A stretch of DNA of 40,907 nucleotides from Chloroflexota bacterium (GTDB lineage Bacteria > Chloroflexota > Anaerolineae > J102). Made by a program: the position numbers and the translations under genes. The stretch is taken from positions 1-40,907 of the forward strand of contig JAADGC010000105.1 of the NCBI GenBank assembly GCA_013152585.1. The letters are read 5' to 3'. Positions 979-31,615 of the stretch are shown here, piece after piece (position 1 is the stretch's first letter; each line of letters opens with the position of its first letter). The notes under the pieces were generated by a model. It was not told where the DNA came from. It ran no database searches and worked only from the letters and a program-made list of their open reading frames with translations.

Positions 979-3900
979 CTACTCAGCCAGCTTGCGGAAG
1001 CGCCCCAAAGGCAACGCCCCCCACACCGCCGCCATATCCTGGGCATGATGCGCACCCAAGGCCACCAGGGCCACCAGATACACGGCAAAGCTCAACACAA
1101 TCGCCAACAACAGGCTCAAGGGATCTACCAATACGAACACGCCCACCATCATGACCCCGGCGACGACCTGCCGCCACAAGATATCCAGCCACGGCACCGG
1201 CGCCAGATACTTGCGCACCGCATAATAAAACGGGAAGAACAAAGACAGCTCCGACAAAATGGTGACCACGGCTGCCGCGGGTACGCCGTAACGAGGAATA
1301 AAAATAAGATTCCCCACCGTGTTAAACAGCACGCCAAACACAAACGCCCGTGTCAGAAAGCGTTGTTGGCCGATGGCAATCAGCACATAATGCGTGACCG
1401 AATTCATGAAGCCAATGGGGATGCTGAGGATGAGCAACTGCAAAGGCAAAATGGCGCCGGGCACGAACGCGTCGCCGCCGAGCAGCAAGATCAACGGTCG
1501 CGCCGTGAAGAAGACAAAGACCGTGACGGGGATGGCCATGATCGTCAGCAGGCGCAGGGCCAGCCAATGCGTGCGCTTCAGCGTATCGGGCTCGTCAGTG
1601 GCAAAACGAGACATCACGGGGAAAATGGCCAGGGTGAAGTAGCTGGGGATCACGTTTATGCCGTCGATGTACTTATAAGCCGCTGCATACAGACCCACGC
1701 CGAATTCTCCCACCCAGGGCGTGAGGATCAAAATATCGAGGCGCCAGAAAGCCGTAGCCAGAAGATGGTTGAGCATCAGAGGTCCGCTTTCGCTCAGCAT
1801 CCAACGTTGCAGCGCAAGATCAATACGCAGGAATGGCCGCAAAATACGCCGTCGTAAGAGCACGAACAACCACAGTGATTGCACAGCATTCATGATCAGA
1901 CTGACAGACGCCAGCCCTACAAATCCCCACCCCATCAGCAATACAAACGCCCCCATCGCCACCTTGGCCAGGGCCACGAACGAGGCCAGGCCGGCAGGAT
2001 ATTCCATCTGCTCGTAGGCATTGAACACGGACGTGAAAGCATCGCTGAGATTGGCAAAATACAGGGCCACCGCAAAAATGGCAATCGCCCACACCGTCTG
2101 ATTGGTAATGACGCCGGCGCGCCAATACAACCATGTGTACACCACCAGGATAGGTAAGATAATCACCCACAGGGCGGTACGCAGCACCAGCACATTGCCC
2201 AAAAACTCGTTGGCGGTCTTCTTATCACGCTTCTTAGCGACCTCGCGCGTGAGCAAAGTGCCCAGCCCAAAACGCACCAGGATCTCGAACAGGCCGTATG
2301 TCTGGACGGCAAAAGTATACGCCCCCTCGCCGCCCGGCGCCAATATGCGCAACCGCAATAAGGCAAAAGCATAGTCAATGAATTTATTGACCAGCGACAT
2401 GGTCATGGGCACCAGCGAATTTTTGGCCACGCGGCGTACTTCGGCCCCCTCGCCCTCTTCTTCCCGATAATAACGGCCCCAGGCCCACCAGCCGATCAAC
2501 AAAAGCAGCAACATGCCAGACAAGAAGCTGGCATAAATCCCCATCTTCAAACTCATGGGCGCATAGTGGAAGCGCACTTCCTGCAGCCCCGCACTGGGCA
2601 CATACACCGCTCGGAAGTTGCCATAGGCCCGCACAATCGGTACCTGCGTTTCTGGCCGCTGGTCGGAGGACGTTTTTTCCCGGGGGATGATGGTGGCTTT
2701 CCAGCCGGGGAAGTAGGCGTCGGCCAGCACCAACCAGCCCGGGGCATCGGTGTTCACTTCCACCACCACATCATTCAGGCCATATTCCTGCACGCGCACC
2801 TGACGTAGCGTGCCAAACTGCGGCGGCGGGTGCTCTATGGGGGCGTCTAACACCACCGTTTGCCGTGGATCTTGCTGGCGTACCGTCTGCCAGAACGCAT
2901 CATCCAGCGGCGCCACCAGGGCCTGGGGGGCAAACCAAACCCGGGGCATAGCCTGCATATTTTCGTAAATGCGCACCTCGTCGTTATACACCAACCGATA
3001 CTGCTCGTCCGTAATCTCCTGCGTGGTCACCACATAGCGCACCCCCAGCAACTGCAACAGCGGATCGTCCAGCGCCGGTGTGTTGGGGACATAGATGGGA
3101 GCGATGCGGTTGTAGAGCAGATCGCCTTGCGTTTGCAACTGCGACATGTATTGCACATATTGGCGGGTGATAATGGAGTCATAGCCGCGCACGTCCTGCA
3201 GCCCGGCCAGCATCCCCAGATTGGCGTTCAGCGTCTTCTGTTCCTGCGGATCCTGGTACGTGGTCAGGCGCCACGGCTGGTCGGGGGTCTGATGCTCCTG
3301 CAGCCAGGTGATGGCCGGGGGCTGAAAATCCAGGAGATCAGCATCAGCGTGGGGATTAAAGTCGTGACCAATCAGCCACAGGTCCAGCACCAGCAACAAC
3401 AAGGCTGCGGCCTGCCATACCCGCAGGCCCACCGACCACGTGAAAGCAGCATCGACCTGCGCCTCGGCTTCGGCCTCGGGGCTGACAGCGCCGATCAGAC
3501 GCCGTTGTCCCCAGGCACTGAGCGCCAACAGCAACACGCCACCGGCCCCCAACACCATAAAGCCAAACTGCAACAAACGCCCCGCCTCATAACTCCACAA
3601 CAAGGCGCCATCGGCGAACACCGCCTGCGCCAGATCCGAACCATCGACCACGCGTTGGGCCAGAGCCACAAAGGGCGCCGGCCACACCTTGCTCAACAAG
3701 AGCAGCGCCAATACCAGGGTGCCGCCCAGGCTCAGCAGCAGGCCGGCAATGCGGGCCGAATCGGGGAAGGTGAGAGATGGCAAACGCCGCCGACCGCCCA
3801 GGCGACCTTCATGCCCGCCTTCGATGGCCAGTTGCAAGCGTTCGAAACCAAATCCCGCCAACAAAGCCATGGACAGGGTGAAAGGAAAAACCCAACGAAA

Positions 3901-5235
3901 TGCCGAATGCAACTGGCGATAGCCCGGCAAGCCATAATAAAGGAGGGCGTAGAGGGGCGTGCCAAAGGCGAAAGCCAGCGACAACGCCGCCAGCAAGGCA
4001 AAGCCTATCACATAAAACCGGCCCGTGGGCGGCCGTTTCCAACCGGGTTGATCCGTGGGCTGACGTACAGTCTCCCCGCGCAAGCGGCCTCCCACATCCA
4101 AAAAAGCGGCCACCGCCAAAACCAACGTCAAAATCCCCAGGTAATTCGCACCTTCGACATAATTCTTCACGCCCCAAAAGACGGTGTGCGTCTCCTGACC
4201 GAAGGCATTCAGCCACACCCCAACCTGCTCTCCCGACCACCAGTCCCGGATGCTGTGATGGGTGGGGTTGCCGAAGATGTCGGGGATGGCAAACGTGAGG
4301 ATATGGCGGCTGGGCCAGGCCCAGTTCACAACCTGGCTATAACTCACCGAGCCGGCGCGAAAATTGTGCGAGACCAGCTCATACAGGGGGATCAGTTGCA
4401 CCGCGCCCAAGAGCAGCCCGGTCAGAGCCATGAAAAAAAGCCATCCCGCCATGCGCAACAAGGGTCGCCAGGCGCCCAGGCGCCGCCAGGCACCAAACAG
4501 GCGCCAGAGGCCGAACATGGCGCTGACCAGCAAGAAGTAATAAGTGACCTCGACATGGCCTGCCAATATCTGTACTCCCAGCACGGCGGCACCGGCCACG
4601 ATATAAGCCACGGGCACGAAGGGCGCGTTGCCTTTCTCTTCCTGCTTGCGCACCACAATTTCAATCAGCGCCAGCTCCAGCGGCAGCAACGATGCTCCGG
4701 CAATCATCATCGGGAACACCACTGAGCTTACGAAAAAACCGGAGAACATGTAGGCGATGCCGGCAAAGAGCGCACCGGCCCGTCCCACACGCAACACGCG
4801 GGCAAAGATGTACATACACATCCCGGCCAGTGCTAAAACCCACCATGTAAATACCCCATACGCCCTGGACAGTGGCAGCACGTAGTAAAGCAGGCTCAGC
4901 GGAAACATCGCCGAATGCTGGCCCGCGGCCAAAAACGGCACGCCCGTGAACAGATAGGGGTTCCATAAAGGCAATTGGTGCGCTTCCAAACTCTGCCGGA
5001 TCAACCGTTTCCAGGGGTAATTCTCCAGCACCAGATCCGACAGCAAGGCATTATGCGGTATTTCCACGCCCTTCTCGCCGGCATAATGCAGCCAGGGCTG
5101 AACCTGATAGATATTGTCCGCTGGCAATAGCGTCCGATTACCCAGAGCCACCGGTGCAAACCACAACAGTGGCAGCAAAAACAGCAACAGCAGCGCCCAA
5201 AGGTCGCGGCGCAACTCAGACGAGCGCATGCTCAT
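979..5235 (-). CDS. YfhO-type GT-C glycosyltransferase fused to a Wzx/MOP-superfamily flippase
   Basis: 1418 residues. Residues 1-915 look like a complete YfhO-family protein: an N-terminal membrane helix, the loop with [14 protein letters not shown] and [16 protein letters not shown], about a dozen membrane segments to residue 640, a large outside domain ([21 protein letters not shown]), then a last helix at about 893-915. Residues 935-1418 look like a complete polysaccharide flippase: about 12-14 membrane segments starting at [20 protein letters not shown], with the Wzx-like [12 protein letters not shown] and [14 protein letters not shown]. Both halves are near full family length, so this is a fusion, not a fragment. 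YfhO proteins transfer sugars from polyprenyl-phosphate outside the membrane, and MOP flippases move lipid-linked sugars across it. ATG 5235 overlaps the stop of the upstream GT2 gene as ATGA, indicating translational coupling. A further in-frame ATG lies at 5229. Confidence 0.88.
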
Positions 5236-5996
5236 GCCTCAGACTGAACGATGGCGGCTTTGCGACGATGGCGGGGCCGTAGGCGCCGATGGCGCAGGCG
5301 AATCTCAAACGTGCGATAAGCGGCTTCCAGCTTGACAGGTACCGACATCTTGGAACGACCAATACGGCGATCCTCAAAATGGATAGGAATCTCCACAATA
5401 CGATAGCCCAGCCGCTCGCTCACGTAGGCCATCTCCACCTGAAACACATAGCCATTGGACAAAATTGCATCCAGATCAATCCCTTCCAGGGCACTACGCG
5501 TCCAGGCTTTGAAACCAGCCGTCCCATCATGGACATGCAGCCCCAAGATCAGGCGTGTGTAAATAGCATTGGCCCACCAGCTCAAAAAACGACGCCACCA
5601 TCCCCAATGCTCATCCAGAGTGCCGCCGGGCACATAGCGCGAGCCCACCGCCACATCGGCATGGGCCAATACCTGCACCATCGCCGGCAAATAGACGGGA
5701 GAATGCGAAAAGTCGGCGTCCATCTGCACAATCACATCCGCACCCATGGCCAGCGCCCGCCGGAATCCATCCAGATACGAACGTCCCAGCCCCCGCAGTC
5801 CCTGCCGGTGCAACACAAATACTTTGTTTTCGTGGCGCCGGGCCAGCTTATCGGCAGACTCGCCGGTGCCATCGGGCGAACGATCATCCACCACCAGAAT
5901 CTGTAAGGACTCAAGGTCGAGGGCCAATAGTTCGCCGACGAGGGCAGACAGGTTGTCGGCTTCGTTGTAGGTGGGAATGACGATAATCGTATTCAT
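5232..5996 (-). CDS. DPM1-like polyprenyl-phosphate sugar synthase (GT2)
   Basis: 254 residues from ATG 5996. The frame is open to 6035, but [13 protein letters not shown] should sit at the very N-terminus, so this start is preferred. GT2 features are [10 protein letters not shown] (residues 36-44), the metal-binding [10 protein letters not shown] with DAD at 93-95, [18 protein letters not shown] and the RIGRSKMS segment typical of dolichol/polyprenyl-phosphate mannose synthases. Such enzymes load a sugar from a nucleotide donor onto a polyprenyl phosphate at the inner membrane face. It has no C-terminal membrane helices and ends in a basic tail ([13 protein letters not shown]), which may bind membrane lipid. 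Its last bases overlap the start of the YfhO-Wzx gene, so the two are very likely made together, this enzyme supplying the lipid-linked donor. The sugar cannot be read from sequence. Confidence 0.9.
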
Positions 5997-6600: not shown

Positions 6601-7605
6601 ATGACACGCTATACCCCACCAGCAAACACACCCCTACGCTCGCGCCTGCCTCTGCTGGCGCTTTCTCTGTCGATGCTCGTCCTGGCGAGCTGGGCGGGAT
6701 TGCTGCGCCTGGGATGGCAATGGCCGCTGATCCGTCCCACGCTACCGATGGCCCACGGCCCGCTGATGGTCAGCGGCTTTTTGGGAACGCTGATCTGTCT
6801 GGAGCGCGGGATTGCCCTGGTGCCGGTGGTGCAGGGCAAAGCTCGCATATTGCTGCTGCTGCCTTCCCTGCTGGCGGGACTGGGGGGACTCGTGGTGGCG
6901 ATGGGTATAGCCAATCCCTTGGGCCCGATCTTGATGACGCTGGGGAGCCTGGGCCTGGTGGCACTCATGACCCGCATTTATCGGCTGCACCCGGCGTTTT
7001 ACTCTCTGGTGATCTGGTTGGGCGCGGTCGCCTGGGCCGGGGGACAATTTCTGTGGCTATTCGGGCAACCCGTCTATGCCATCATCCCCTGGTGGACTGG
7101 CTTCCTGGCCCTGACCATCGCCGGCGAACGGCTGGAGCTGAGCCGTCTGTTGCGGTTGCCGCCGCCTGTCCGGCGTCTGTTCATGCTGGCCACGGCGCTA
7201 TTGGGTACAGCCATGCTGCTGACGTTGCTCCGTTATGACACGGGCATGGCGCGTTCTGGGGCTGGCCCTGTTGCTGCTGGCAGCATGGCTGCTCCGCTAC
7301 GATATCACCCGGCGTCGGCTGCATGTGGGCGGGCAGACCCGTTTCATAGCCGTGGCGTTGCTCAGCGGATATGGCTGGCTGGGCATCAGTGGGGCCTTGT
7401 TTATCATCTACGGCGGCATGGCAGCGGGGCCTTATTACGATGCCATGCTTCATACATTTTTCCTGGGCTATGTCATGAGTATGATCTTTGCCCACGCGCC
7501 CATCGTCTTCCCCGCGGTTTTGGGGCGTCCCCTGCCTTTTACTCCCTGGTTTTACAGCCATCTGGGCCTGCTACACGCCTCCCTGCTGCTGCGCATCACC
7601 GGTGA
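6601..7605 (+). CDS. NnrS-like polytopic membrane protein, N-terminal part (frameshifted)
   Basis: From ATG 6601 about 212 residues form a plausible membrane protein with about seven hydrophobic segments. Conserved-looking stretches include PMAHGPLMVSGFLGTLICLERGIAL and LALTIAGERLELSRL, which recall the NnrS/heme-copper-like family (up to 12 helices with conserved His). After about 7240 this frame turns into proline- and arginine-rich residues unlike a membrane protein. The continuation (RVLGLALLLLAAWLLRYD) is read one base later. Removing one G from the GGG at 7239-7241 would join them through DTAWRVLGLALL. Either the gene is broken or the sequence has one extra base. The real coding part of this entry is about 6601-7238. 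Confidence 0.6.
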   Translation: MTRYTPPANTPLRSRLPLLALSLSMLVLASWAGLLRLGWQWPLIRPTLPMAHGPLMVSGFLGTLICLERGIALVPVVQGKARILLLLPSLLAGLGGLVVAMGIANPLGPILMTLGSLGLVALMTRIYRLHPAFYSLVIWLGAVAWAGGQFLWLFGQPVYAIIPWWTGFLALTIAGERLELSRLLRLPPPVRRLFMLATALLGTAMLLTLLRYDTGMARSGAGPVAAGSMAAPLRYHPASAACGRADPFHSRGVAQRIWLAGHQWGLVYHLRRHGSGALLRCHASYIFPGLCHEYDLCPRAHRLPRGFGASPAFYSLVLQPSGPATRLPAAAHHR

Positions 7606-7732
7606 TCTGACATTGCAAACCGGCCTTCGGCAGTGGGGTGGCTTGCTCAATGCCCTGGTGCTTTTGCTGTTCCTGCTCAACACCGTCGTTGCCATCCGCA
7701 GAGGGCAATCCCGGGCGCCGGGGCAGGAGTGA
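7235..7732 (+). CDS. NnrS-like membrane protein, C-terminal part (frameshifted)
   Basis: 165 residues in the next frame, continuing the protein that begins at 6601. It has about five hydrophobic helices, including MLHTFFLGYVMSMIFAHAPI with two His in a membrane segment. That feature is expected in the heme- or metal-binding part of NnrS-like proteins. The tail is short and basic (RRGQSRAPGQE). An ATG happens to fall at 7235, so this part could be translated alone, but the preceding sequence is coding in the other frame and has no ribosome site. Repaired, the whole gene would encode about 376 residues, close to the usual NnrS length. The stop is followed directly by repeat A1. Confidence 0.6.
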   Translation: MTRAWRVLGLALLLLAAWLLRYDITRRRLHVGGQTRFIAVALLSGYGWLGISGALFIIYGGMAAGPYYDAMLHTFFLGYVMSMIFAHAPIVFPAVLGRPLPFTPWFYSHLGLLHASLLLRITGDLTLQTGLRQWGGLLNALVLLLFLLNTVVAIRRGQSRAPGQE

Positions 7733-9637: not shown

Positions 9638-11260
9638 TTAGGGCGCAAACTGGTAGTCCCAGCCGAAGTCCACCTCTTTACGCGCTTCGCCCGGGCCGAT
9701 GCTCAGGCTGTGCTGACCGTCACCGGGGGAACTCCAGGCGCCGGGGAGGAAGATGGGCTGGTTGTGATCAGATGTGGGATCGATGCTGACGCAGTATTCG
9801 CCAGGCAGTAATTTGCTGAATTCGTAGTTGCCGCCGGCATCGGCCACAGTGGTGGCCATGCCGGTAGCCGGGCAAATACCCGTGCCCAGGGTGACGATGG
9901 CCCCACCAATGGCGGGTTCGGCCTCATCGTGACGGCCGTCAGCTAAATACGAGCCATCATCGAGGATGCGGCAGCCCGGCGGGGGAGATTCGGCACTGAG
10001 CCCGGCGTTGGCACACAAATCATGCCATACCTGTCCCTGAATCGAAGCCGTGCGGGTGGCATCCTGGGGAACAACGATGCTGACCCAAAAAGCCTGATCC
10101 GCGTTGCGACCGATACCGAACAAAGCGCCCGTGCTGTCCTGTAACTTCCACGAACTCCTGTAGCTGCCCTTTCTGGCAGGTGCGACCAATCGTATCGAGA
10201 CTTGCACCACATCGCCGGGGGCAACGGTTTGCCCCAAGGGGAACGTTGTTACTTTGCCCATGGCATCCCCTCCCGTCCCCACAATCTGATACTCCGGCGT
10301 CCAGGTGCAAGTGCCCCCGTTGCGCAGGCGCCACGTCTTCACAAAATTCTGGTGACCGCCTATGCGGGTTTTATCTCTTACGGTGACATCACTGACAAAT
10401 TCGGCTTTGTTGGTACAGCCAAATGTCTTCGTAGCAGGTGCCGGGGTGGGCACGATAACGGTTTCGCTACGGATGATGCTGCCATCCTCGTCGCTGCGAT
10501 ACACAAAGCGCTGCTCACCCGCGGTCAGGCCAATCAGGTAGCCGGGGGTGATCTGCTGAATGCAGGCTTCATCGGCCGCGGCCAGTCCCAGGCAAGCATC
10601 GGGCCATTCCCGGGCTTCGATGCTGTCGATGGAGATGGCTCCGGGGGCAATGTCGAGTTGTTGCGCCAGCATGCCCTGCACCACGTAGGCGACATCCGGG
10701 ATGGTCGCTGCCGGCGGCGGGGATGCAGGGGATGCCGGAGCCAGAGCTGACTCGATTTCTACCGAGCGAGCGCTGTTGTCAACGCTGAGCTCGAAGCTAT
10801 CGGTCATGCCGTTGACGTCCACGACGTACGTGCCCGCGGGCAAATCCTGCGTTTCCAGGCTGATCATCTGCTCAAACGACGTTGCCTCGGGATGGCATTC
10901 TGTATCACCCGAGCTTTGGGTCATGATGGCCACATGAAAACGATTGCCGGCTCGCACCGGCTGCACCTCGCCGATTGTGGTGCAATCATCGGGCAGGGTA
11001 CCACGGGCAATCACCCGCACCTGCACCGGAAATGATTCCAGTATCTGAATACTGATACTTTCGACCGCGGCCAGTCGGATGACGGCGGCACCTGCGTCGG
11101 CATCGAGGCCGGGAGAGGTGGCGAACCTTTCTTTGCGAGCACTGCCACAAGCACTCAACACCAGCAGTGACAGGATCAGCAAGCTCAAGACAAGCAGGCT
11201 ATGCCGTCGGCGACGCGGAGGGAGAGTCGAGGCGATGGCAAGAGATGATGGTACAGACAT
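9638..11260 (-). CDS. Secreted lipoprotein with NBR1-type Ig and SdrD B-like domains
   Basis: 540 residues. A basic N-terminus (PPRRRRHS) and hydrophobic run end in a lipobox LVLSAC, predicting lipidation at Cys38. A middle region at about residues 175-265 has the WPDACLG ... TPGYLIGLTAG pattern often seen in Chloroflexota surface proteins. Residues about 277-400 are an Ig-like domain of the NBR1 central-domain type (KTWRLRNGGTCTW, VAPGDVVQVSIRL, GSYRSSWKL). Residues about 405-535 resemble a collagen-binding B / SdrD-like domain (GQVWHDLC, GGAIVTLGTG, DAGGNYEFSKLLPGEYCVSID). The protein probably sits on the outer face of the membrane and binds other macromolecules; no enzyme domain is seen. 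GGAG lies about 10 bases before ATG 11260. Confidence 0.85.
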   Translation of the reverse strand: MSVPSSLAIASTLPPRRRRHSLLVLSLLILSLLVLSACGSARKERFATSPGLDADAGAAVIRLAAVESISIQILESFPVQVRVIARGTLPDDCTTIGEVQPVRAGNRFHVAIMTQSSGDTECHPEATSFEQMISLETQDLPAGTYVVDVNGMTDSFELSVDNSARSVEIESALAPASPASPPPAATIPDVAYVVQGMLAQQLDIAPGAISIDSIEAREWPDACLGLAAADEACIQQITPGYLIGLTAGEQRFVYRSDEDGSIIRSETVIVPTPAPATKTFGCTNKAEFVSDVTVRDKTRIGGHQNFVKTWRLRNGGTCTWTPEYQIVGTGGDAMGKVTTFPLGQTVAPGDVVQVSIRLVAPARKGSYRSSWKLQDSTGALFGIGRNADQAFWVSIVVPQDATRTASIQGQVWHDLCANAGLSAESPPPGCRILDDGSYLADGRHDEAEPAIGGAIVTLGTGICPATGMATTVADAGGNYEFSKLLPGEYCVSIDPTSDHNQPIFLPGAWSSPGDGQHSLSIGPGEARKEVDFGWDYQFAP

Positions 11261-25383: not shown

Positions 25384-26364
25384 TTACACATCCTCTTCGA
25401 GAAGATTGTGTCCTGCCGTTAGCGGGCCTAAATTCCGCAACCGCCCCAATAGTTCCGCTAAGCCACTTTCAATGGAAAAAAGGGGCCGCCATCCGAGCTG
25501 AGCGAATGCCGCTCCCTCAAGCTCGAAGGAGAAGTGCGTCAGGGCATCTTGATCGGTATAACGCACCTGCACATCCGGTTTCGAATAACGCACTGCTTCC
25601 CCCAAGTCTAGCACCGAGACATTTTTTCCCACAACGTTCAGAATGCGTCCGACCGTCAAATCTTCGTGCTTCAGACAAAAGCGAATCGCCGAGCTGGCAT
25701 CGCGCACGTGCACCACAGGGCGTCGCTGCCGACCGTCACCATAGACAGTCAACGGCTTGCCCACCCCAGCCAGATAAGCGAAACGGTTGGCTACAGCCGC
25801 CACGCGCACACCAGGAGCGTAACCGAAAAAAGTTCCCAGTCGCAACACGGTACCTGCCAGACCTCGTTCATTGGCAACACGTATATTCTCCTCAGCTCGA
25901 TACTTGGACTGAGCATAAGGCCCAATAGGATGACAAAGGTCTTCCTCGTGGAAGGGGCCACCTGGTCCGTACACGGCAGCGCTACTGGCAAAGATAAAGC
26001 GCTGTACACCGGCCTCCAGACAGGATTCCACCAGCCGAGCCGTACCCCAATGATTCACTTGCTCCACCCAAATAGGGTCATGACCAAAGCCCATGGCTGT
26101 GCTGACAATTGCCGCCAGATGCACCACAACATCAACGCCTTCTAACGCATAGCGGAGGGCAGAGGTATCCAAGATATCACCCTCGATAAATTGATAGTGG
26201 CCTTTCTCGGGTAGATCCATGAGCGCCTGTAAACGGCCTGATTGCAGATTATCAAGAACTCGAATAGTTATCGCATTGGTTTCAGTGTCAAGCGCCAGAT
26301 CCCGAATCAGTTGGGAGCCCAGGTAGCCACAGCCACCAGTAACCAGAATTGTGTAATGTTCCAT
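25384..26364 (-). CDS. NAD-dependent epimerase/dehydratase (extended SDR)
   Basis: 326 residues. Rossmann signature VTGGCGYLGSQLI at residues 8-20, Asp38 in VLDNLQSGR (prefers NAD), DILD near 63, HLAAIVS, the catalytic Ser127/Ser128 in FASSAAVYG, and Tyr150-x3-Lys154 in PYAQSKYRAEE. The C-terminal domain has RLGTFFGYAPGVR and VYGDGRQRRPVVHVRDAS, typical of nucleotide-sugar epimerases and dehydratases (GalE/RmlB relatives). The substrate is not assignable. It starts one base after the cysH stop (26366-26368), so the two are translated from one message. With the upstream GT2 this suggests a role in making or altering a glycan sugar. Confidence 0.88.
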   Translation of the reverse strand: MEHYTILVTGGCGYLGSQLIRDLALDTETNAITIRVLDNLQSGRLQALMDLPEKGHYQFIEGDILDTSALRYALEGVDVVVHLAAIVSTAMGFGHDPIWVEQVNHWGTARLVESCLEAGVQRFIFASSAAVYGPGGPFHEEDLCHPIGPYAQSKYRAEENIRVANERGLAGTVLRLGTFFGYAPGVRVAAVANRFAYLAGVGKPLTVYGDGRQRRPVVHVRDASSAIRFCLKHEDLTVGRILNVVGKNVSVLDLGEAVRYSKPDVQVRYTDQDALTHFSFELEGAAFAQLGWRPLFSIESGLAELLGRLRNLGPLTAGHNLLEEDV

Positions 26365-26365
26365 T

Positions 26366-27094
26366 CTATCTCTCCTCTTTTGTCTCTTTTGGAGTCAGCG
26401 AAAAAACCGGAGAAAGAAGCATTGTATGCAGGCCACATTCGGCCTTTGCCTGTCCAGACCACCGACCGGCTCGTTCATCTTCGTCTTCCCCGACAGGACG
26501 CGTGCAGGGCGCACACCCCACGCTCAAGTACCCTCGTGTAAGAAGAGGATGCTCCGGCAAGTCATAATCGGCAATATATTTCCAAACATCACGTCGTGTC
26601 CAGGTTACCATGGGGCAAATCTTATAAATGCCGTTATCCTGCAGGCTCACGACGGGCGTGTGACGACGTTCTGGCGTCTGGTCGCGACGAATACCGCTGA
26701 TCCACGCCTTCAGTCCCCGCATGGCTCGCCGCAACGGCTCCACCTTATTGATATAGCAGCAGCGGTCAGGGTCTCGCCGGTATAGATCACCAAATCGTCT
26801 CAAAAAATCGTCATGCCCCATTCCTGCCCGCAACACTTCGACATTTAGACCATATGTAGCGATCAATCTATCTCGGTACGCCAACGTCTCAGGGAAATGA
26901 AAACCAGTATCCAGAAAGAAAACTGGCAACTGCAGTGTCACTTCAGCGATCATGTGTAATAATGGAACACTCTGTGTCTGAAAAGAAGACGTCGCCGCAA
27001 TACGTGGCCCAAACGTCTCCCAGGCCCAAATCAAGATGTCTTGCGGCGTTAGCGTTTCCAATCGCTGATTGATCCGATCTATGTCCATGCTCAT
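26366..27094 (-). CDS. cysH: CysH-type adenylyl-/phosphoadenylyl-sulfate reductase
   Basis: 242 residues. Reduces APS or PAPS to sulfite with thioredoxin, the second stage of sulfate assimilation. Visible are SSFQTQSVPLLHMI (nucleotide-binding SSFG-like loop), VFFLDTGFHFPETLAYRD, the Cys112-Cys113 pair in RCCYINKVEPL, and Cys194/Cys197 in GCAPCTRP. Those four Cys would hold a 4Fe-4S cluster as in APS-type reductases. The C-terminal catalytic Cys220 lies in ECGLH. WISGIRRDQTPERR is also typical. The presence of all four cluster Cys favours APS as substrate. No other sulfate gene is nearby; instead it lies between a GT2 (61 bases upstream) and an SDR (1 base downstream), an odd place. An ATG two codons in (27088) is an alternative start. 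Confidence 0.92.
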   Translation of the reverse strand: MSMDIDRINQRLETLTPQDILIWAWETFGPRIAATSSFQTQSVPLLHMIAEVTLQLPVFFLDTGFHFPETLAYRDRLIATYGLNVEVLRAGMGHDDFLRRFGDLYRRDPDRCCYINKVEPLRRAMRGLKAWISGIRRDQTPERRHTPVVSLQDNGIYKICPMVTWTRRDVWKYIADYDLPEHPLLTRGYLSVGCAPCTRPVGEDEDERAGRWSGQAKAECGLHTMLLSPVFSLTPKETKEER

Positions 27095-27155
27095 AGAAAA
27101 ATCATCATATCCTGTAACTCATCCACCTTTCACTTCTATTTGGATAACGATCAAA

Positions 27156-27788
27156 CTATCTCTTTCGCAGCAACCAGGGCAGTAGAAAGAAGAATTGTTG
27201 CAAATGATACCAGGCAATTCGCCTGGGTTTGCCAATAGCTTGCAAATGGACGGGAACTTCTTCGAGCCTTCCCCCTCGGGCAAGAACCTCCAGCGAAAAT
27301 ATACCACATATACATGCCCCCTTCAAAGTAAGCTGCCGAGCAGTTTCTGCACGTATCGCCCGGAAGCCGGTGCCGCTATCGCCCACCGGCGCTCTAAAAT
27401 TTGCCAGCCACGTCAGAAAGCGCTCCGAAGGACGAGGTATAGAGTCGCGATGGCCCTGAACCATATCAGCCTCGTCGTTCAGGATGGGCTGAACCAGTGT
27501 CGGAATCTGCTCTGGCGGGAACTCTCCATCTGCATCAATCGTGACGATAATCTCGCCAATAGCCTCGCTAAAACCACGTTTAATCGCGGCGATGTATCCC
27601 CGGTTTTGTTTCTGCCGAATCACCCGCGCCCCTGCCTGCCGGGCTTCTGCGGCCGTTTTATCAGTACTGTCGTCATCCACGACCAGGACTTCATCCACAT
27701 AAAGCGCCACGGCTCGCACCGTTTCGCCAATGCGCCCCGCCTCGTTATAAGCGGGAATGACGGCCGTAATCCCCGTAGAGATACTCAT
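27156..27788 (-). CDS. GT2 glycosyltransferase, DPM1/GtrB-like
   Basis: 210 residues. GT-A fold start ITAVIPAYNEAGRIGETV, VLVVDDDSTDKT at 35-45, NRGYIAAIKRGF, and the metal-binding TIDADGEFPPEQI with DAD at 85-87. Then GHRDSIPRPSERFLTWLAN, DSGTGFRAIR, CICGIFSLEVLARG and VPVHLQ, all as in dolichol-/undecaprenyl-phosphate sugar transferases. The C-terminus (WYHLQQFFFLLPWLLRKR) is hydrophobic and may touch the membrane, but two full helices are not present. It lies first in a GT2-cysH-SDR group. Its ATG overlaps the stop of a short minus-strand frame (27785-28018) as ATGA, hinting that a now-decayed gene preceded it. Confidence 0.9.
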   Translation of the reverse strand: MSISTGITAVIPAYNEAGRIGETVRAVALYVDEVLVVDDDSTDKTAAEARQAGARVIRQKQNRGYIAAIKRGFSEAIGEIIVTIDADGEFPPEQIPTLVQPILNDEADMVQGHRDSIPRPSERFLTWLANFRAPVGDSGTGFRAIRAETARQLTLKGACICGIFSLEVLARGGRLEEVPVHLQAIGKPRRIAWYHLQQFFFLLPWLLRKR

Positions 27789-28313
27789 CCTAACACAGCC
27801 TCCGATAAAACTTCTATGGCCAGCAGAAACTCGGCTAAATACGAGTGGAAGAAACGGCCGTGACCAATGCCATTCAGCTTTCTTTCTTCATGGTCAGCCT
27901 TTCTCAGCGCTTCCTTCTGGAATGCCGAGAGGAATCGCCCCATGCGGGCGTCCTTGACTTGAAAGCCTACTTCCGAGGTCTGTATTACGCCTCTGAAATA
28001 TTGAAAATGCTTCCGCAAAAACCGGAGCCAATTTTATTCCAACGCATTACTTGCTTTATCGCCACCTTGGGCAGCATGCACAGCCCGCCTCTGCGCATCC
28101 GAGCTGCCTCATTGGCGAAGGTATTGACAAAGGACACAAAGAAATAACTGTTTCATAGGACAATACGACGAATGCCTTCTTTTAGATGCGGCACGTTGAA
28201 GTTTCTGGATCACTTTAGAGATACCAGGCATCCATGCCTTATGTTGAGTGCGTGAGGGGCGACACAGAAAATGACGCCTGTTCTGGCCAATCATCGCCAA
28301 TTATCGAGTGCCT
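27789..28313 (-). other. Gap with possible decayed coding sequence
   Basis: 525 bases between fcl and the GT2 gene. Minus-strand frames give short coding-like pieces in different frames: about 77 codons at 27785-28018 (SYLAEFLLAIEVLSEAV near its end, joined ATGA-fashion to the GT2 start) and a stretch near 28030-28190 containing VPHLKEGIRR. None forms a full protein and no family is recognised. It may be the remains of one or more polysaccharide genes. No promoter or RNA is evident. Confidence 0.35.
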
Positions 28314-29461
<1,148 letters not shown>

Positions 29462-29569
29462 TGGCCACCTCCCGGATGTCACAGTGAGACCCCATGAGCT
29501 GCGGTGGAGCCTCTTTCTATTCCGTAAAAATCCGGATGAATCCGTGGCAAAAACACCAGACTGCAGTTC
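29462..29569. other. Breakpoint region between gmd remnant and NusG-like gene
   Basis: Holds CTGGCCACCTCCCGGA (29463-29478 region), identical over 16 bases to part of repeat B3, and degenerate CCGTAAAAATCCGGATGAATCCGTGG units. No gene. Confidence 0.5.
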
Positions 29570-30148
29570 CTAATACTGCCGGTTCCTGAGCGGCCTTCCC
29601 CGGCCACGCGTGGTGCGGCCTCGCCGCCGCACCTGGCTCGCACGCTCAATCGCCGCCAGTTCCATCTCCACCTCATTCTGCTGTCCCAAAAAACTCAACA
29701 ACACGATCACCCGTTCTTTAGCAGGCAGATGGCGCACAAACACGGCATGAAGCCCCTGCAACGGCCCTTCCAGCAAACGCACCTCCTCGCCGGGCTGATA
29801 CAGATGCGGCACCCACCCCCCGCGAGCGTTCAACCGCCTCACCTCCAGCCGTATCTGCTCGACCACGTGTGCCTGCAAGGGCAGCGGATGGCCTTCACAA
29901 GCCACCAGCCGCAAGACACCCGGGGTATAGTTGATCGCTGTCATCTGTAATTGTTCCGGGTCTGCCTGCACGAACAAATAACCGGGAAATAAGGGCCGCG
30001 GCTGCATCTTGCCCCGATATTTTTGCAAAACCTCCGGCAAAAACACATTCATGTGCAAGAGTTGTTCCAGGCGGTCGGCGGCCAGTAACTCCTTGTGGGT
30101 TCTGGCATGCACCACATACCATAAGGCAGATAATCTGTTTGTAGTCAT
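29570..30148 (-). CDS. NusG paralog of the RfaH/LoaP/UpxY type
   Basis: 192 residues from ATG 30148 with GAGAGAGAG upstream; the frame opens further to 30457 but that part is not NusG-like and spans the promoter. The NGN domain is at about residues 8-110: WYVVHARTHKELLAADRL, NVFLPEV, RPLFPGYLFVQ and YTPGVLRLV are the typical strands and RNA polymerase contact surface. The KOW domain follows at about 118-168 (YQPGEEVRLLEGPLQGLHAVF, KERVIVLLSFLGQQNEVEM), then a very basic tail (RRRGRTTRGRGRPLRNRQY). Specialised paralogs of this kind prevent early termination in long polysaccharide operons. It lies directly upstream of gmd/fcl. It has its own promoter (30378-30406) and a leader of about 220 bases. 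It is not the housekeeping nusG, which sits with secE and rpl genes. Confidence 0.88.
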   Translation of the reverse strand: MTTNRLSALWYVVHARTHKELLAADRLEQLLHMNVFLPEVLQKYRGKMQPRPLFPGYLFVQADPEQLQMTAINYTPGVLRLVACEGHPLPLQAHVVEQIRLEVRRLNARGGWVPHLYQPGEEVRLLEGPLQGLHAVFVRHLPAKERVIVLLSFLGQQNEVEMELAAIERASQVRRRGRTTRGRGRPLRNRQY

Positions 30149-30601
30149 GGGGCTCTCTCTCTCATTCTTTTGTTTCCCGTCTCTCGAGAGTTGGGCAAGA
30201 TGCGATATGGGGCCGCTCGATGGGCTTTGCCTCGGAGCCGTCACTCGTGAGGACGGTCGTGGAGCCCAAGCGCTGCCCTCCTGACGCCGCTGGAAATCAG
30301 GATCGAGAGCCGGGAGATGGAGCGTCTGTCTGGAGCAATGGCTACAACAAACAGACGCATTGAATCGAAGTACAAAAAGGATAGCACGCCAGGACGTGAT
30401 CCGCAAGAAGACTTGTAAAGAATCCAGCAGGCAACTGTGCCCATAGCAAGTCATCACTTTTCACTGCCATACCATTCTCTCATCCTTGAGGAAGGCCGCG
30501 CCCAGGCCGGTTCCCCCTTGTTCCTGTGTTTATCCGCATCCAAAAACTTGACCATTTGCTATCATTTTTACCCTCCAAGCTATCTGGCCCAGGAGGTGCA
30601 T
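30149..30601. other. Gap: leader of the NusG-like gene
   Basis: No gene seen. Contains the promoter at 30378-30406 and a leader with a hairpin around CCGTC/GACGG (about 30239-30257). The side towards 30601 shows nothing recognisable. Confidence 0.5.
30378..30406 (-). promoter_or_regulatory. Predicted promoter of the NusG-like gene
   Basis: Minus strand TTGCGG (30401-30406), 17-base spacer, TATCCT (30378-30383); predicted leader about 220 bases. Confidence 0.45.
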
Positions 30602-31615
30602 TCAGGTACGTACCAGCCCCCAGCAGAATCCTGCCCCGGCGGCAGTGGCTCGCACCAGCAGCAGCGGCAGTGTCACCGCCAACACCGGTGGATCGTGGCG
30701 GACCACCAGCAGCAGAAAGGGGATGGCACTGACTACAAACAAAAGCGCCAGCACCAACGCCAGCCATCCCGCCCCCGACCACAGGCCCCAGGCTGCCAGA
30801 CTCAGCCACAACAAGCCTGCCAACCCAATCTGAATTTTCACGCTCTGCGTCATGTGCGCATCCTTGAGCATATAGCCCGGATGCTGGCGAGCCAAAAACG
30901 CCTTCCAATAGCCAATGCGAAACTTGCGCCGGGCATAGGCTACCGCCGAGCACACATGCCAGTGATACACCATGGCCTGGGGCACAAAGCGAAACACGTG
31001 CCCCGCCTCGGCCATGCGGTACGAAAGTTCGTGATCCTCGCCCGCAGCGCTGGCAAAACGGTCATCGAACCCGCCGGCGTCCACAAAGGCCTGACGCCGA
31101 TAACAACAATACGAGGTATCAAGGGCATTCACCGAACCCTGTTGGGCGGCAATGTGGGCAATGCGGCGATAACGTTCTTCGTATTCCAGTTGGATAAAGC
31201 GGGCGACCAGCTCCTTCTGCCGGCACCGATACACGCCCCGGGCGCCGCTCACATCGGCATCGGCCAACGGCTTCAACAACTGCGCCAAGAAATCGGGAGC
31301 CGGTTCGCAGTCGGCGTCCGTAAAAACCACCACGGGCGCCAGCGCCGATGCCACACCGGCATTGCGCGCCGCCGCGGCTCCGGCATGGCGGCCCCGCACC
31401 ACCCTCGCCCCGGCCGCCTTCGCCACCTGCGCCGTATCATCACTGCTGCCATCGTCCACGACTACTATCTCGTAAGACTCATCGGGCAGTGTTTGTTGTT
31501 GTAGGGCTGCCAGGCAACGTGGTAAAATTTGGCTGGCGTTATACGCCGGCACGATCACGCTCACACGCAATAGAGATGCTGGAGATGGGGCTTCGATGGG
31601 GGGTGTTGATGTCAT
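30602..31615 (-). CDS. Membrane-anchored GT2 glycosyltransferase
   Basis: 337 residues from ATG 31615. GT-A domain at about 15-245: VSVIVPAYNASQILPRCLAAL, VVVDDGSSDDT, AGAAAARNAG, the metal-binding VFTDADCEP, and the acceptor-side GFDDRFASAAGEDHELSYRM with the catalytic ED. The C-terminal part has three hydrophobic segments at about 262-335 (IGLAGLLWLSLAAWGLW and two more), so the enzyme is fixed to the inner membrane. It likely adds a sugar in repeat-unit synthesis. It is third in the flippase-GT2-GT2 run, with 122 bases to the previous gene, a gap that holds repeat C1. Donor and acceptor are unknown. Confidence 0.9.
   Translation of the reverse strand: MTSTPPIEAPSPASLLRVSVIVPAYNASQILPRCLAALQQQTLPDESYEIVVVDDGSSDDTAQVAKAAGARVVRGRHAGAAAARNAGVASALAPVVVFTDADCEPAPDFLAQLLKPLADADVSGARGVYRCRQKELVARFIQLEYEERYRRIAHIAAQQGSVNALDTSYCCYRRQAFVDAGGFDDRFASAAGEDHELSYRMAEAGHVFRFVPQAMVYHWHVCSAVAYARRKFRIGYWKAFLARQHPGYMLKDAHMTQSVKIQIGLAGLLWLSLAAWGLWSGAGWLALVLALLFVVSAIPFLLLVVRHDPPVLAVTLPLLLVRATAAGAGFCWGLVRT

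Follow-up and report, generated by a model that had tools for sequence, protein, structure and literature searches.

A predicted two-gene unit for glycosylation across the membrane was identified on contig JAADGC010000105.1, the analysed window being the whole stretch of 40,907 nucleotides, part of a draft genome of 3.8 Mb; among its close relatives, those with names are Caldilineae/Caldilineales metagenome-assembled genomes (MAGs) of the Chloroflexota. A GT2 glycosyltransferase gene overlapped, by the letters ATGA, a gene of 1418 codons in which a YfhO-type GT-C half was joined to a MurJ/Wzx-type flippase half. This fusion is real and is ancient in its phylum. Together the two genes would form a transmembrane glycosylation module in which the flippase half moves the lipid-linked sugar made by the GT2, a reading to which we give about even confidence. 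The gene pair and its parts were as follows.

979..5235, minus strand: fused gene, 1418 aa, YfhO-type GT-C and MurJ/Wzx-type flippase, one stop-free open frame
5232..5996, minus strand: GT2 glycosyltransferase gene, 254 aa, from Pfam, a structure-sequence match and orthologues
5232..5235, minus strand: ATGA overlap of the GT2 stop and the fusion start, read directly from the sequence
2470..5235, minus strand: GT-C half, residues 1-922, with 14 predicted transmembrane helices and both termini predicted inside, from model, Pfam and loop charges
2431..2469, minus strand: short, charged, predicted cytosolic linker, residues 923-935, from sequence and model
982..2430, minus strand: flippase half, residues 936-1418, MOP superfamily (MurJ/Wzx-like), from PF01943 and model

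The class sample surveyed for the fusion comprised 61 genomes, namely that of the window and 60 others related to it within the class; the genome tallies are our own counts from the listings. An uninterrupted fused frame was found in 45 of the 61, one of the 45 with a TGA inside the part that matched, while the rest were mostly truncated by contig ends, with one genome lacking a match and five holding paralogues only. In a 301-genome sample of the phylum, fused frames also turned up beyond the class, in roughly a dozen families, and many other genomes had a flippase that stands alone, about 480-600 residues long. One contig scan reached outside the Chloroflexota and returned close relatives only, other phyla being barely covered by it. 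The idea that an assembly error or frameshift had joined two genes could draw on G005 (a MAG), with the frame broken near the junction, and on G048, with an internal TGA, but it was dropped as having next to no probability, since the fused frame recurs at the same junction in dozens of independent assemblies at 34-85% identity. The uninterrupted chain and the junction near position 2430, both named in the first-pass annotation, were borne out in this way.

Sequence and model together place the N-terminal half with the YfhO family and give it a GT-C fold. Its model (predicted local distance difference test, pLDDT, 87; predicted template modelling score, pTM, 0.89) matched the structures of STT3 (Z 20.5), AftD (Z 19.5), DPY19 (Z 18.8) and ArnT (Z 14.4), and the GT-C membrane fold was recognised by Z 14-20 against STT3, PMT, AftD, DPY19 and ArnT. 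The Pfam family YfhO (PF09586) was matched by 36 of 36 orthologous N-halves (best E 4e-22), and the N-half profile also aligned with 19 YfhO-like paralogues, stand-alone proteins from the phylum. For the copy in the window, hmmscan of the whole chain did not match the YfhO half; scanned alone, this half matched PF09586 over residues 669-772 only (E 2.4e-6, 26.7 bits, cut-off 28.5), and in the genome scan the fused protein scored 18.8 bits (cut-off 28.5). Because the Pfam match was partial and below the cut-off, completeness of this half rests on the models, so that the near-complete YfhO domain (1-915) of the first-pass annotation stood as a modelled GT-C structure and not by Pfam alone.

The first outside loop of GT-C enzymes is the site of their catalytic acids, and the following features were located in this half.

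5116..5118, minus strand: D40, acidic residue in the first outside loop, candidate catalytic residue or metal ligand, D in 41 of 42 fusions
5035..5037, minus strand: D67, second acidic residue of the first outside loop, 42 of 42 fusions
4549..4557, minus strand: H227-V228-E229, predicted on the outside face, from residue comparison
2557..3342, minus strand: predicted outside beta-rich domain, residues 632-893, from model
2470..2556, minus strand: predicted last GT-C helix, residues 894-922, running from outside to inside, from model

D40, D67, E229, R293 and H327, with many further residues, were invariant or nearly so among the fusions. At position 229, E was found in all 33 fused copies compared, and Q in 16 and E in 3 of the 19 stand-alone YfhO paralogues. 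H327 was also placed outside, and with E229 it marks the fused subfamily, the stand-alone paralogues mostly having other residues at these positions. Part of the beta-rich domain overlapped weakly (Z 5-7) with dextranase C-terminal beta domains.

Both ends of the N-half were placed inside from helices and loop charges, and the orientation of the flippase half was borrowed from the MurJ/Wzx family. With the C-terminus of the N-half inside and the first flippase helix starting inside, the chain would therefore continue straight into the flippase, and the shared inner side proposed for the two termini agreed with the predicted topology.

The modelled fold makes the C-terminal half a complete MOP flippase, of the type that handles lipid-linked sugars; the first-pass annotation had a near-complete one at residues 935-1418. 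Pfam PF01943 (Polysacc_synt) covered residues 936-1211 with 88.2 bits (E 8e-25, cut-off 28.2). Over 400-450 residues the fold matched MurJ (Z 32.2) and WzxE (Z 30.5; template modelling score on the target 0.82) against Z 27.6 for the best drug MATE. R963, R997, R1019 and E1329 were invariant across fusions and mostly retained by stand-alone relatives. The NCBIfam equivalog cut-offs were missed for both Wzx_EPS (40 bits, cut-off 800) and SpoVB (29.5 bits, cut-off 372). The two halves were modelled separately, and the whole 1418-residue chain had no match among sequences of the PDB; a model of residues 600-1418 (pLDDT 85.5, pTM 0.71) left the mutual orientation of the halves unfixed.

The GT2 is predicted from its sequence to be a polyprenyl-phosphate-hexose synthase of the DPM1-like kind. 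It matched Pfam Glycos_transf_2 (E 1.7e-24), and its closest solved structure was the dolichol-phosphate mannose (DPM) synthase of P. furiosus (5mlz; E 9e-29, residues 3-219); the DAD motif was intact, and the protein had a short basic C-terminal tail and no membrane domain. These matches and the ATGA read from the sequence agreed with the overlapping DPM1-like gene of the first-pass annotation. A GtrA domain was sought in the GT2 and in the fused protein without a match in either.

Among the 41 class loci with enough flank, the GT2 orthologue was directly upstream of the fusion in 26, and the spacing in most orthologous loci was an overlap or a short gap. The other 15 genomes held a clear GT2 orthologue elsewhere (7 genomes, 54-71% identity) or weaker homologues only (8 genomes). 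A conserved third gene was sought across 17 loci, where none besides GT2 and the fusion was widely common and the other neighbours varied, so these two genes behave as a two-gene unit. The proposed adjacency was thus recovered by the survey in the greater part of the loci. A second DPM1-like GT2 in this genome (G000:C204:15788-16465) was 46% identical, and eight weaker GT2 relatives were also present. At locus L018 of genome G005 another gene lay between GT2 and fusion, and the fusion frame shifted near the junction, a short way from the end of the contig.

As a set of components, the locus is by its sequence a multi-component transmembrane glycosylation system, with a GT-A synthase, a flippase and a GT-C enzyme encoded together. 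In the preferred mechanism, the GT2 would load a single sugar onto polyprenyl phosphate at the inner face of the membrane, and the flippase half (MurJ/Wzx-like) would turn the resulting lipid-linked sugar outward. Tethered through the short cytosolic linker, the GT-C (YfhO) half would then take the sugar from the lipid outside and add it to a cell-surface acceptor, which may be a glycan or a protein. A search for STT3-type oligosaccharyltransferases gave two weak matches only, which speaks neither for nor against an N-glycan as the acceptor. Sequence and models show the parts, their folds and topology, the conserved acidic residues outside, the fusion and the GT2 pairing; what we infer is each of the three activities, which sugar and which acceptor are used, and the GT2 product as flippase cargo. 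In the earlier proposal of a three-part system in two coupled genes, the parts, the fusion and the coupling accordingly held, and the carriage of the GT2 product by the flippase keeps its conditional form. A shared substrate of GT2 and flippase is favoured by genome G237, where a GT2 orthologue stood directly before a solo flippase with no YfhO half, although this is one case. Roles shared out in this manner have also been proposed for GacI/GacK/GacL and AglD/AglR/AglS.

Several observations weigh against a flippase half that carries the GT2 product. Eight of the 41 fusion-bearing class genomes were without a clear GT2 orthologue, and solo flippase relatives persist without an adjacent GT2 or YfhO. 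Such solo flippases adjoined GT4 genes in G227 and G183, and G227 also had a Wzy-like gene (Wzy_C) and LPG_synthase_TM beside it. This genome also encodes one GtrA-family protein (the sole GtrA match, on another contig), which could flip the GT2 product, so the claim that an unrelated flippase was replacing GtcA could not be upheld. Pyrophosphate-linked glycans are the cargo of most Wzx/MurJ proteins characterised so far, and a Wzx homologue in Listeria was dispensable for the GtcA-dependent pathway. On these grounds the flippase half might instead move the acceptor, a polyprenyl-pyrophosphate-linked oligosaccharide, which the GT-C half would decorate while another protein, for example of the GtrA family, flipped the GT2 lipid-sugar. 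The nearest solved folds, MurJ and WzxE, are carriers of pyrophosphate-linked cargo, and the solo relatives among glycan-assembly genes and the GtrA protein would fit such a role, but the fusion had no conserved glycan-assembly genes beside it, only the single-sugar GT2, and in G237 the GT2 was paired with a flippase without YfhO. Since solo retention, the GT4 neighbours and the GtrA protein have to be set against that single case, the two-gene module stays at even confidence and movement of the acceptor is regarded as possible, if rather unlikely.

It is a good deal more doubtful that the halves act on unrelated substrates, with the fusion merely setting their ratio or membrane insertion. The GT-C half was lost repeatedly with the flippase kept, so the flippase can act alone; against this idea stand the long conservation of the fusion across the class, its short linker and a GT2 partner that stays the same. 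A dead GT-C half serving as scaffold or regulator of the flippase would agree with the G338 protein, in which a truncated GT-C half is still joined to the flippase, but it is very improbable given the residues that are (nearly) invariant among the fusions.

The simplest reading of the sequences of the sampled genomes is a single ancient fusion, after which the enzyme half (and the GT2) was lost repeatedly, with a leftover helix in some lineages. In the enzyme-half tree, a quick search, 33 of 33 fused copies formed one clade apart from the 19 stand-alone YfhO paralogues (Shimodaira-Hasegawa-like approximate likelihood ratio test, 100). In the flippase-half tree, solo and fused forms were intermixed, and the well-supported branches require at least 4 changes. 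A profile built from the terminal YfhO helix and the linker (residues 889-928, flippase excluded) matched N-terminal extensions of five solo flippases with 26.8, 23.5, 19.5, 13.4 and 8.8 bits, the best background score being 7.1 bits among about 1260 shuffled sequences. Because several YfhO proteins that stand alone were also matched by this profile, at their C-terminal helix, the leftover helix is of YfhO origin. A slot downstream of a leucyl aminopeptidase gene was occupied by the fusion in G154 and G123, by GT2 and then flippase in G237, and by the flippase alone in G245, G131, G222, G276 and G199. The single fused-enzyme clade, the intermixed flippases, the kept terminal helix and the shared slot together argue for one old fusion and repeated loss.

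In G338 (L083:4394-7081) a protein of 896 residues had a truncated YfhO-derived half still fused and most GT-C helices gone, and it resembles an intermediate of decay. A relocated enzyme half was sought in the solo genomes, giving mostly paralogue-level matches; the possible exceptions, in G204 and G096, grouped with paralogues in the tree. Repeated independent fusion is less likely, although the remaining solo flippases had no YfhO-helix remnant detectable with the 889-928 profile. Solo flippases as an ancestral, never-fused form were also judged less likely, given the one fused-enzyme clade, the intermixing and helix scores above those of shuffled sequences. In G146 (L084:5234-9183) the frame of a solo flippase overlapped that of the gene directly after it, which encodes a PMT-family GT-C with a C-terminal N_BRCA1_IG domain; the flippase there again adjoined a GT-C, but one of a different kind.

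Known systems hold the same parts in separate genes. GacI/GacJ/GacK/GacL of Streptococcus pyogenes has in common a GT-A synthase, a Wzx-type flippase and a GT-C transferase, and is like the proposed module in that one sugar is carried on C55-P, but its genes are separate and unfused, with a helper (GacJ) and a GT-C of PMT_2 type instead of YfhO (PMC8035078). CsbB/GtcA/YfhO of Bacillus subtilis, Listeria and S. aureus shares the GT2 and the YfhO-family GT-C, and differs by a small GtrA-type flippase, a membrane-linked GT-A and the lack of fusion (PMC8035078, PMC7389260). AglD/AglR/AglS of Haloferax volcanii fills the same three roles (AglS likened by role), with DolP-mannose (DolP, dolichol phosphate) being synthesized, AglR proposed as the flippase or its assistant and mannose added outside onto the finished glycan, but by three separate genes and with archaeal dolichol (PMC3871713). 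MurJ and WzxE share the C-half fold, and differ as stand-alone proteins with pyrophosphate-linked cargo and no GT-C domain. The DPM synthase of P. furiosus (5mlz) shares the catalytic domain of the GT2 and has its own C-terminal membrane domain, which the GT2 here is without. AglR is akin to Wzx.

Systems of this type with a flippase other than GtcA are not new, since GacK, for the GacI/GacK/GacL system of S. pyogenes (PMC8035078), and AglR (PMC3871713) were already proposed. For a covalent fusion of flippase and transferase, no report was found in the open-access literature, so the claim of an undescribed architecture holds for the fusion and not for the choice of flippase; the parts list was already known, and the covalent flippase-transferase is the new part.

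Elsewhere in the window, overlapping frames at 6601-7605 and 7235-7732 were apparently one membrane-protein gene broken by a frameshift, and a protein with N_BRCA1_IG and SdrD_B-type domains (9638-11260) is likely surface-exposed. About 20 kb off, a small cluster (25384-31615) held a sugar epimerase/dehydratase, a 3'-phosphoadenosine-5'-phosphosulfate (PAPS) reductase and two GT2 genes.

It is unknown how lipid-linked sugars are passed on from a flippase to a transferase, and for most systems the identity of the flippase is a guess based on genetics. In a natural fusion the pairing of flippase and transferase is fixed, and there is a single chain to purify and image, by which substrate hand-over becomes testable. 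Tentatively, and short of even confidence, we suggest that a Wzx-type flippase may pass its own polyprenyl-phosphate-sugar directly to the attached GT-C site, and that this would be an ancestral Chloroflexota device from which the enzyme half was shed many times with its last helix kept. The solo descendants would be natural controls for what the enzyme half adds.

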